Source: Hyperoplus lanceolatus (lineage: Eukaryota; Chordata; Actinopteri; Uranoscopiformes; Ammodytidae). From it: a stretch of DNA of 64,000 nt. A program made the position numbers and the translations under genes. The stretch spans positions 16,777,501 to 16,841,500 of the forward strand of contig CM049398.1 in assembly GCA_026929865.2 (NCBI GenBank), given 5' to 3'. Shown one piece after another: positions 2,635 through 6,100 of the stretch (position 1 is its first letter; each line of letters opens with the position of its first letter). The notes under the pieces are model-generated. The model did not search any database and was not told where the DNA came from. It saw only the letters and a list, made by a program, of their open reading frames with translations.

Positions 2635-2709
2635 TGTGTGTGTGTGTGTGTGTGTGTGTGTGTGTGTGTGTGTGTGTGTGTGTATGTGCGTGTGTGTGTG
2701 TGTGTGTGC
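2635..2709. repeat. (TG)n microsatellite upstream of npas1 PAS exon
   Basis: Nearly pure TG dinucleotide run on the sense strand of npas1, with minor interruptions (TATG, TGCG) near its end. In the pre-mRNA it is a UG repeat about 370 nt upstream of the acceptor at 3079. Confidence 0.97.
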
Positions 2710-2832
2710 GCACGTGCGTGTGTGGGCACACATGTGTCATATGTGTCTGTGCTTCTCTCTTCCTAATGCAGGTCCGTTTGACATTGTTTCATGTCTGTTC
2801 ACATTTATATGTGTGTGTTCACATGTGTATTG

Positions 2833-2907
2833 GTGTGTGTGTGTGTGTGTGTGTGTGTGTGTGTGTGTGTGTGTGTGTGTGTGTGTGTGTGTGTGTGTGT
2901 GTGTGTG
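2833..2907. repeat. (TG)37 microsatellite upstream of npas1 PAS exon
   Basis: Uninterrupted TG run of about 75 nt, ending about 170 nt before the acceptor of the exon at 3080. It is complementary to the CA repeat just downstream of that exon (3218-3330). Confidence 0.97.
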
Positions 2908-3079
2908 AATTGAGAGGAGAGGCCAATGGGTGACAGGTTGTTTGTTCCCTAGCTCATTGTAATTTGTTCGATACACACTAATTGCTCTAATTTGTCTGTC
3001 TTGTTTATGTTGGCTTTTATGTGCACGTGTTTGTGTGTGTGTGTCATGTGTGATGTGTGTTTTTTCTTTATGTGCACAG

Positions 3080-3169
3080 TCTCTGGACGGATTCGTGTTT
3101 GTGGTCAGTAGTGAGGGAAGGTTCCTCTACATCTCAGAGACAGTTTCTATCTACCTGGGACTCTCACAG
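3080..3169 (+). CDS. npas1: npas1 exon: start of PAS-A
   Basis: 90 nt, phase 0 at both ends, encoding 30 residues from SLDGF to GLSQ. The acceptor is TGTGCACAG at 3079 and the donor is GTAAGA at 3170. Skipping would keep the frame but remove the first strands of PAS-A. TG repeats lie upstream and a CA repeat downstream (see findings). Confidence 0.95.
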
Positions 3170-6100
3170 GTAAGACAACCTCATTGCCCATGCATACACA
3201 CACACTCACACAGAGAGACACACACACACACACACACACACACACACACACACACACACACACACACACACACACACGCACGCACTCACACACACACACA
3301 CACACACACACACACACACACACGCACACAGTAGAATAATCCTTTGTATACATGTGCATTTGCAAACTTGTGCCTCTCTTCTGCTTACACTTTCATATCC
3401 CCTCCAAGGAGTGTGTGTGTTAGTGTGTGTGTGTGTGTGAGTGTGAATATCTTTGACTGCATTCTACGAGCTCATCTCTGGAGTGCAACTCTCACGGGGG
3501 CAATGCTACTCTCTCTATACCTCTCTCTACCGCCCTCTCTCCCTCTCCAGGTGCTCACCTCTGTTGATTGCCTGTGGCCTCTTGTACTGTGAATGTTAAG
3601 TCCTGCCATTTTGCCCAGATGCATAAATAATAACAGTAATTACTGGCCCAGCAATCAAAGTGTCGCCCCAGCGCGCTGGGCCTGTCTAGGGGAACAAATC
3701 GATAGGCATCTTAAAAGCCACATTGATTGTAGGGAGGGGGAAAAACACCAAGGGGGATGGGAAGATAGATAGAGACAGCCGGAGAGAGAAAGAGAGGGGG
3801 AGGAAAGGAGGAGAGGTGTGATAAGAGAGAGATGTTTCGAAATAAGAAGAATTGGTACAGCATGCGAGAGAGAGAGAGAAAGAGGGAAGTTAGTGCTTCA
3901 ACAATATAAGTAACTAAGATTTTTTTTTAATTGGACATTTACATGATTAAGCGTCTAGCCATAGCGACATGCTATTTATGTTGAAAGAGGCATTGGTTAC
4001 TGTAATCATTTCCCACGTGTATACTGTCTGTGAACCTCCTGACACATATGAACTGTAAGAGACAGATTCGGAGAGACAGAGTTGAAATGGGCAAAGAGGG
4101 GAAGACAAGCAAATAAACAACCCGGGCGCGATTCGAACCCGGGTCTGCTGCAAATCCTGGGCCCATATGGGAACACTCTACCCACTGCATCATGAGCGCC
4201 CCGGTGTTTGCATATTTTGATATAAAGCAACAGTGGGAAGGTCTACCCTTTTTCATAATTTAATAGAGTGAATGAATGAATGAATGAATGAATGAGAAGT
4301 ACTGCAAGAACCAGTAGGTGCTAACAGTTGTTTTTATGTTCTTTAATTTGCTATGATACAAACCAGAAATTGCAGCAAGAAAGTTTGCATTAGATATTTC
4401 TTTGTTTACAAAGTCTTTCTTCAACTTCCTTAAAGTTCAAGTTAACACCAGGCTGCCAAGCAATATTTTCCTGTCCACGTTGGTTTAAAGTTTCAAGCCT
4501 GTTTAGCATCTGGCCACACCCAGTATCACATATACTAATAATGACCACACCCAAAAAGTGATGTCACGGTGTACAGACACACCCTGGAGTGAACGGTTAA
4601 ACCGCAGGTTGGCAAAAAACAAGACACTGAAGTGCACAGGCTGATAATTCTTAAGCCAAGTACTGTATTATTATGACGGACTAAGAAATATAGAAATCTA
4701 AGATATGAGTAAAATCTAAGATGGTTTGTAAGCCAGTAACCCAGAACAAAAGGTGGGACACAGAGAGAAACATATAGAACCAGACAGACAATTAGAAGCG
4801 AGAGAAAATAAACGGGAGGAATAGTGGAGAGAAAGAGAGACAGTGGTAAAGTGGAGTGAGAGAGTCTGAGTGTGTAAATAGAGTTTAAATGTGCAGTAGG
4901 AATGAAATTCGCCTTGGGATTGCCTAGGTAAACAAGACAGCCGAGGCTTTGGTGGAGATGCTAATAAAACAGAGCTGTTCTTATCAGCTGAGCAGATGGC
5001 CTAACCCATCACATCTATTCAAACAGGGCCTGAGCCATCAGCATTCTAATGAAATTATTTATGATTGGAGATTACGTTCAAAACCTTCAACATACAACGC
5101 CACGTTCACCTCCCCGAAAAGATGAGAGCAAAGGAGGATGGAGGGGGTTTATGATGAGAAAGAGAGACAACCTGAAAGGGGAAGAGAGTGTTAGGAGTTG
5201 AGGAGATGAGTTAGGGAGATATATGAGAATGGAGTATATAGTGTGTTTATGGACACATAGGCCGAGAAAGAAAAAACATACAAAGAAAAAAAAAGGAAAA
5301 GAAAGGTAGGAGTGAGGGAGAGAACGTTAACACTTCGATGTACTTTGTCGGTGAGTGGGGGCGGACACAGGGGAGAGAGGAAGGACAGACAAACAAACGA
5401 TGTTCTGAGTGAAAAAGTGTAACTGGTGGTTTGTTTTAGAGGGCATGTCGCCCCTGTGGACCGCCCCTGCCCTGCCGTCTCCGTCCCCCCCTGTCTGACC
5501 TCTCTGCCCTGGCTTACACTCTGGGCTTTTCCCTTGACAGGGGGGGTTGCTTAGCCGGCTTAGCCCAGGTCAGGCACCTTGACCAAGGGCACAGCCTGCC
5601 GCCCACTACCCTGGCGCCTCCAGGTATCATTTCTCTTCTCATCGGGGTCTCCACCCAGGAAACATGGGGATAAGCCTGGGAATGCCACATAGCAGATGGG
5701 GGGGGGGAGGCAAGAAAAGGATGGATAAAATAGAAGAAAAGAAGACAAAGGCTGGAGAAGGTGAAGAATTGGAGGGATGAGAAGGTAGAAAAGATGGAGA
5801 AGTAAGAGTATGGGCTGGGAGGTGAAAGAAAGGGGATGAATAGGGTAAAGAGAAGGGAGGAAGGATGGTAGATTAAGGGAGGAGAGAATTGATCTGGGAA
5901 TGGTTAGTATGCAGCCCCCGCTCCCCCCTCCCTCCCTCTCTCTCCTCTCCCATCAGTCAGTGAGGGCTGAGGGCTGAGAGTGTGTTGTGGACCACTGCCC
6001 GGATGCCTCATACATATTAAAGCCCCCTGCTATTATTTATATCATGTCTCTCCTTCCCCTGCTTGCTGCCCTCCTCACCCCCCCCCCATCCCCACCACAC

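Follow-up and report, generated by a model that had tools for sequence, protein, structure and literature searches.

The closest described counterparts of the locus analysed here are zebrafish introns bounded by dinucleotide repeats, which Lin and colleagues (Genome Res, 2016) are said to have identified as AC and GT and to have placed in about a tenth of genes. According to a review, the repeats at the boundaries of these introns pair with each other and allow splicing without U2AF2 (PMC9198270). Base-paired intronic Alus can make a constitutive exon alternative, and in that work, by Lev-Maor et al. 2008, the Alu pair sat within one intron upstream of the exon and did not flank it (PMC2533698). 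In CFTR, a UG repeat at the acceptor of exon 9 causes the exon to be skipped by way of TDP-43, and this missplicing depends on TDP-43 bound to UG-rich sequence that precedes the 3' splice site (PMC12171016).

The locus compared with these systems lies in a 64-kb window, the whole stretch of DNA that was analysed, and consists of a 90-nt exon (exon B) of a gene that is likely npas1, together with the repeat arrays of its two flanking introns. Arrays were located with Tandem Repeats Finder, and pure runs were listed separately. The principal features are as follows, with the exons named after the likely gene.

731..798, + strand: npas1 exon A, which precedes the PAS-A exon and codes for ...RRSLHSLTNDIFELHLGAHLLQ
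811..847, + strand: imperfect AC array, 12 nt past exon A, with a pure run of 21 nt at 815-835
2635..2709, + strand: GT array towards the 3' end of intron 799-3079 (2635-2708 by Tandem Repeats Finder), with pure runs of 49 and 19 nt
2833..2907, + strand: perfect GT array of 75 nt, which stops 172 nt short of exon B
3080..3169, + strand: npas1 exon B (90 nt), of phase 0-0, with which PAS-A begins
3196..3330, + strand: AC array that begins 26 nt past exon B, pure at 3218-3277 (60 nt) and 3287-3323 (37 nt)
3409..3446, + strand: short GT-rich array in intron 3170-11676, a competing partner of AC arrays
6136..6488, + strand: interrupted AC arrays in intron 3170-11676, a competing partner for GT arrays
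10791..10888, + strand: AC array in intron 3170-11676, with modelled pairing to GT 11498-11582
11498..11582, + strand: GT array that stops 94 nt short of exon C
11677..11836, + strand: npas1 exon C, the next part of PAS-A, whose donor is perhaps slightly further downstream
42667-43992 and 62642 onward, + strand: egln2-like gene, whose first coding exon is large and whose later exons carry catalytic-domain motifs

Exon B follows the acceptor ttttttctttatgtgcacag/TCTCTG (the slash marks the splice site), in which a U-rich tract is present, and ends in the donor TCACAG/gtaaga, which has the consensus form CAG/gtaaga. All 30 of its residues match, ungapped, PDB chains of NPAS3 (E 6.4e-11) and NPAS1 (E 1.5e-10), which we take to be the mouse proteins. 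The joined frame of exons A to H likewise aligns to solved NPAS1/NPAS3 chains over 309-310 of its 334 residues, and the solved proteins therefore include exon B. Because the last codon of exon A (...LLQ) is complete at 798 and exon C starts with GTG GAG at 11677, the assignment of phase 0-0 is correct. The splice sites, the frame and the NPAS1/NPAS3 matches thus confirm the original prediction of a 90-nt phase 0-0 exon at 3080-3169 that forms the start of PAS-A. The intron upstream of exon B (799-3079) is 2281 nt long and the intron downstream (3170-11676) 8507 nt, and the gene model places eight npas1 introns wholly inside the window.

For the identity of the gene, given as npas1 in the original prediction, the signals are mixed. 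The spliced protein encoded by exons A to H scores higher against NPAS3 (418 bits) than against NPAS1 (352 bits), and this speaks against the name. The neighbouring gene at 42667-43992 fits it: the best chain is Egl nine homolog 2 (4.2e-45, versus 8.1e-34 for homolog 1). Its 35 matches contain no Egl nine homolog 3 chain, so the comparison covers homologs 1 and 2. The catalytic-domain match of this open reading frame begins only at residue 333, leaving a long front part. EGLN3 is short and has no long front part, so this feature of the neighbour speaks against EGLN3. NPAS1 and EGLN2 are, as we take it, both on human 19q, whereas NPAS3 presumably adjoins EGLN3 in human, and the name npas1 was kept because the neighbour is EGLN2-like and agrees with this synteny. 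The alternative name npas3, although favoured by bit score, was set aside on the strength of the neighbour and of NPAS1-like stretches recognized by eye in the alignment. The gene is therefore likely to be npas1, with some doubt. A Pfam search of 30 distinct open reading frames gave four matches (RVT_1, DDE_3, a Spin-doc zinc finger and PBP_sp32 at E 0.035), none of them informative for synteny.

The repeat listing agrees with the earlier description of UG repeats upstream and a CA repeat downstream of exon B, and GT-rich sequence is also present at 3018-3062, directly before the U-rich tract of the exon B acceptor. A further regularity, absent from that description, which had only the exon-flanking arrays, is that both introns flanking exon B run in the order AC...GT (811-847 with 2635-2907, and 3196-3330 with 11498-11582). 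The layout resembles the zebrafish repeat-flanked introns already described, since each of the two introns has AC following its 5' splice site and GT preceding its 3' splice site. Unlike in the zebrafish introns so described, the strongest local pairing here is predicted to cross the exon, and the AC array of intron 799-3079 is short. With the inverted Alus of Lev-Maor et al. 2008 the locus shares a long predicted intronic double strand near an exon; it differs in being built of simple repeats whose partners lie on opposite sides of the exon, whereas the Alu pair lay in one intron. The likeness to the (UG)m(U)n element of CFTR exon 9 is a UG repeat upstream of the 3' splice site; here, however, the arrays are longer and further upstream, and a U-rich tract is present at the acceptor.

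The window contains 46 pure AC/GT runs of at least 12 nt, with 14 AC and 12 GT runs reaching at least 30 nt, and at this density exons next to such arrays are not rare. In a random-position null, 90-nt stretches were required to have arrays of at least 40 nt, with GT no more than 450 nt upstream and AC no more than 250 nt downstream. The GT-exon-AC layout was found at 0.51% of positions, the exon B locus counted in, and the reverse order, AC then GT, at 0.62%; with arrays of at least 20 nt the respective values were 0.71% and 1.74%. In a gene-level null, in which the whole gene structure was circularly shifted round the window, at least one GT-exon-AC exon with arrays of at least 20 nt arose in 3.6% of shifts when the flanks were 200 nt and in 5.9% when they were 300 nt, values to be read with flank and length cut-offs chosen post hoc and with shifts that are mutually dependent. 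If arrays must reach 30 nt, exon B has the layout only when the flanks are 300 nt (5.2% of shifts); if flanks are cut to 100 nt, it lacks the layout. The layout thus weakly exceeds chance; the view that it lies far beyond chance was set aside, since it occurs at 0.5% of positions and in 3.6 to 5.9% of gene placements under post hoc cut-offs. Exons in a genome number some hundred thousand or more; were the density of the window to hold throughout, hundreds of exons of this kind would be expected, and a single case would be unremarkable.

Pairing was then considered for naked RNA. Within 700-3600 there are 316 inverted-repeat pairs of at least 30 nt. The array GT 2833-2907 can form 60 unbroken Watson-Crick pairs with AC 3196-3330, or 68 including G-U, and the best duplex between them is predicted at 74 pairs and -152 kcal/mol. 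In the predicted fold of 2600-3340 the AC array is shared by both GT arrays, with 66 + 64 = 130 pairs between an outermost pair at 2639-3330 and an innermost pair at 2900-3196. The stem of at least 70 bp that had been proposed was therefore, if anything, a modest estimate. It had also been said to loop out exactly this exon; exon B does lie inside the predicted loop, but the loop (2901-3195) also takes in 179 nt of the preceding intron and 26 nt of the following one. Within this fold exon B would form 29 internal pairs, and 14 of the 21 acceptor positions and 6 of the 10 donor positions are paired. Ensemble folding of 700-3600 agrees: the expected number of pairs to AC 3196-3330 is 64.8 for one GT array and 63.8 for the other. 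Complementary repeats are thus present in both introns flanking exon B and are predicted to pair, and for naked RNA at this local scale (700-3600) the exon loop clearly wins in the model.

The same arrays have other partners. GT 2833-2907 can form 75 perfect pairs with each of AC 6136-6488 and AC 10791-10888. Co-transcriptional pairing was modelled by folding joined blocks that end at successive transcription points, leaving distance, proteins and kinetics aside. In blocks up to 3200, AC 811-847 pairs with one or other GT array (36-37 pairs) and would bridge the upstream intron. Once the block end reaches 3340, the exon loop takes over with 66 + 64 pairs to AC 3196-3330, and it persists at 3600. 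When AC 6136-6488 is included, the lowest-energy fold shifts both GT arrays there (75 + 68 pairs). With the block end at 11030, GT 2635-2709 switches to AC 10791-10888 (72 pairs); with the block end at 11760 it returns to 6136-6488, and GT 11498-11582 pairs with AC 10791-10888 (75 pairs). Fast folding would favour the near partner in reality. The modelling shows a predicted pairing outcome that is not set by sequence alone; the original prediction mentions neither this shift of the fold nor the high affinity of TDP-43 and hnRNP L for UG and CA repeats.

Proteins that bind these repeats bear on whether such a stem would form in nuclei. According to a preprint, TDP-43 has a picomolar Kd on (GU)6 and (GU)12, and its rapid on-rate captures single-stranded GU repeats ahead of folding (PMC12697283). 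The fold considered there is a pUG quadruplex and not a UG/CA duplex, and the word duplex is absent from the text. By analogy, a pUG quadruplex may be a further competitor for the UG arrays here. A study on worms reports that TDP-1 occupies about 70% of UG repeats of at least 6 units and that loss of TDP-1/TDP-43 raises double-stranded RNA, in worms also in introns and together with editing (PMC4282642). The protein hnRNP L binds CA repeats and can act as activator or repressor via CA-repeat elements (PMC7708053). With such affinities, a UG/CA stem would be less likely to form freely in nuclei.

The reading that we favour, with moderate confidence, takes exon B to be an ancient PAS-A exon that is included constitutively, and the repeats in its introns to be mainly ordinary dinucleotide microsatellites. 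The upstream UG arrays and the downstream CA array could pair in naked RNA, even strongly. In cells TDP-43 and hnRNP L would probably cover much of the arrays, or competing repeats would pair with them, and exon B would be included through its own good splice sites; because the arrays would be protein-coated or held elsewhere, pairing would have at most a minor effect, for example a rare skipped product. The succession of GT-array partners, from 811-847 to 3196-3330 to 6136-6488 and partly 10791-10888, favours a constitutive exon. Counting against it are the dominance of the exon loop within 700-3600, at about 65 + 64 expected pairs, and the splice-site arrays of two successive introns, whose order somewhat exceeds that expected by chance. 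We consider regulated skipping or circularisation less likely, and the functional claim of the original prediction, that the stem acts on splicing, is unlikely to hold.

A rather unlikely alternative, though the most probable of the rivals, is that both flanking introns are bridging introns of the zebrafish AC...GT type, in which pairing would aid the splicing of each intron and favour inclusion of exon B; the UG-exon-CA arrangement would then merely be where two bridging introns meet. Among the npas1 introns of at least 400 nt, two of five run AC...GT and none runs in reverse (arrays of at least 20 nt, 200-nt flanks), and at these settings 2.45% of circular shifts give at least one such intron and only 0.23% give two or more. 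This count is a lead and not a test, because its limits were set after the sequence was seen and the shifts are not independent. The AC array of intron 799-3079, with 21 pure nt, fails the 30-nt cut-off, at which one of five introns qualifies, and with 100-nt flanks none of eight does. The early pairing of AC 811-847 with either GT array, before the downstream AC array is added, accords with bridging, but the predicted exon-loop duplex is far stronger (-152 versus -64 kcal/mol). From a block end of 3340 onward, the repeats of the upstream intron cease to be each other's favoured partners in the folds: GT 2635-2907 prefers AC 3196-3330, 6136-6488 or 10791-10888 over AC 811-847. In the downstream intron, GT 11498-11582 has a closer partner in AC 10791-10888. 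Given its U-rich tract, the 3' splice site of exon B need not be one that lacks U2AF2 binding. Nor is the layout general: runs of at least 12 nt are absent from the outermost 300 nt or so at both ends of the egln2-like intron 43993-62641; over 43993-64000 such runs occur only at 47159-47190, 47195-47321 and 59490-59574, with none in 59575-64000.

It is unlikely, and slightly more so than bridging, that the UG/CA stem, by looping exon B out, brings about its regulated skipping or circularisation, with repeat length setting the extent. The 130-pair predicted stem round the exon, its dominance in the 700-3600 ensemble and the 0-0 phase of the exon are what such a mechanism would need, and the Alu precedent indicates that paired intronic repeats can make a constitutive exon alternative. 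In that precedent, however, the pair lay on one side of the exon, and GT 2833-2907 has partners further on that are as good or better than AC 3196-3330. A circle of 90 nt would, to our knowledge, be unusually short for a single exon; a literature search on single-exon circle length returned nothing bearing on this. Among the matches listed in a search on npas1/npas3 splicing, no title or abstract start dealt with skipping of exon B, and a search on GT/AC repeats in fish splicing found no paper combining all terms. The 30 residues of exon B presumably form the first strands and a helix of the PAS-A core, and the helix that packs on the dimer partner is, as we take it, encoded in exon A. On this presumed fold, skipping would keep the frame and probably break PAS-A, so that a product that has lost its function or serves as a decoy is more plausible than fine tuning. 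The proposed tuning of PAS-A dimerisation by repeat length is accordingly doubtful.

Less probable still is that the repeats are read by proteins with no duplex involved, TDP-43 on UG and hnRNP L on CA adjusting the inclusion of exon B. CFTR exon 9 offers a precedent for TDP-43 on UG-rich sequence (PMC12171016), as does hnRNP L for regulation through CA-repeat elements (PMC7708053), and the GT-rich sequence at 3018-3062 lies just before the U-rich tract of exon B. The long UG arrays, unlike those of CFTR, stop 172 nt from the splice site, and the CFTR (TG)m(T)n is a single element with a short T tract in its risk form, whereas the tract of exon B is U-rich. We regard as very improbable a TDP-43-gated cage, in which bound UG arrays would keep the RNA open and exon B included, scarce TDP-43 would let the 130-pair UG/CA stem close and the PAS-A exon be dropped, the in-frame product with a broken PAS-A could act as a decoy, and array length would set the threshold of a switch that might recur at other exons of like layout; its already very low probability was lowered a little further because exon 18 of worm pqn-41, the one splicing example considered from that study, went the opposite way, with more inclusion on TDP-1 loss and double strand in both bracketing introns (PMC4282642).

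If the stem does form in cells, the locus would offer a natural test of whether the length of a hypermutable repeat can switch an exon, and would likewise show whether exons are protected from duplexes by TDP-43. For now it is a single case of an arrangement to be expected at many exons from the repeat density of the window, and it is useful mainly as a well-defined site for minigene work.

Several other features of the window were observed. Intron 13915-15491 carries an AC array (101 nt) followed by a GT array (35 pure nt) at 14693-15133, in AC...GT order but in the interior of the intron. AC 36650-36745 and GT 36817-36917, with 71 nt between them, could make a long hairpin. The npas1 exon at 15492-15610 has as its acceptor tract a microsatellite of about 35 ATCT copies (15350-15491) that ends 3 nt before it, so that further ATCT copies would make the pyrimidine-rich tract longer. 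On the other side, 25 consecutive C begin 8 nt past the exon (within 15611-15643), which leaves the exon between two simple repeats. In the intron before exon A, 268-681 on the + strand gives a weak DDE_3 match (E 0.0023, below the curated cut-off) and looks like a Tc1/mariner transposase remnant. On the - strand, 30428-31117 encodes a reverse transcriptase domain (RVT_1, E 1.8e-25) and 54997-55320 gives a weak Spin-doc zinc finger match (E 0.00013, below cut-off). A 173-nt unit is present at 48696-49045 in two tandem copies that are 87% alike.
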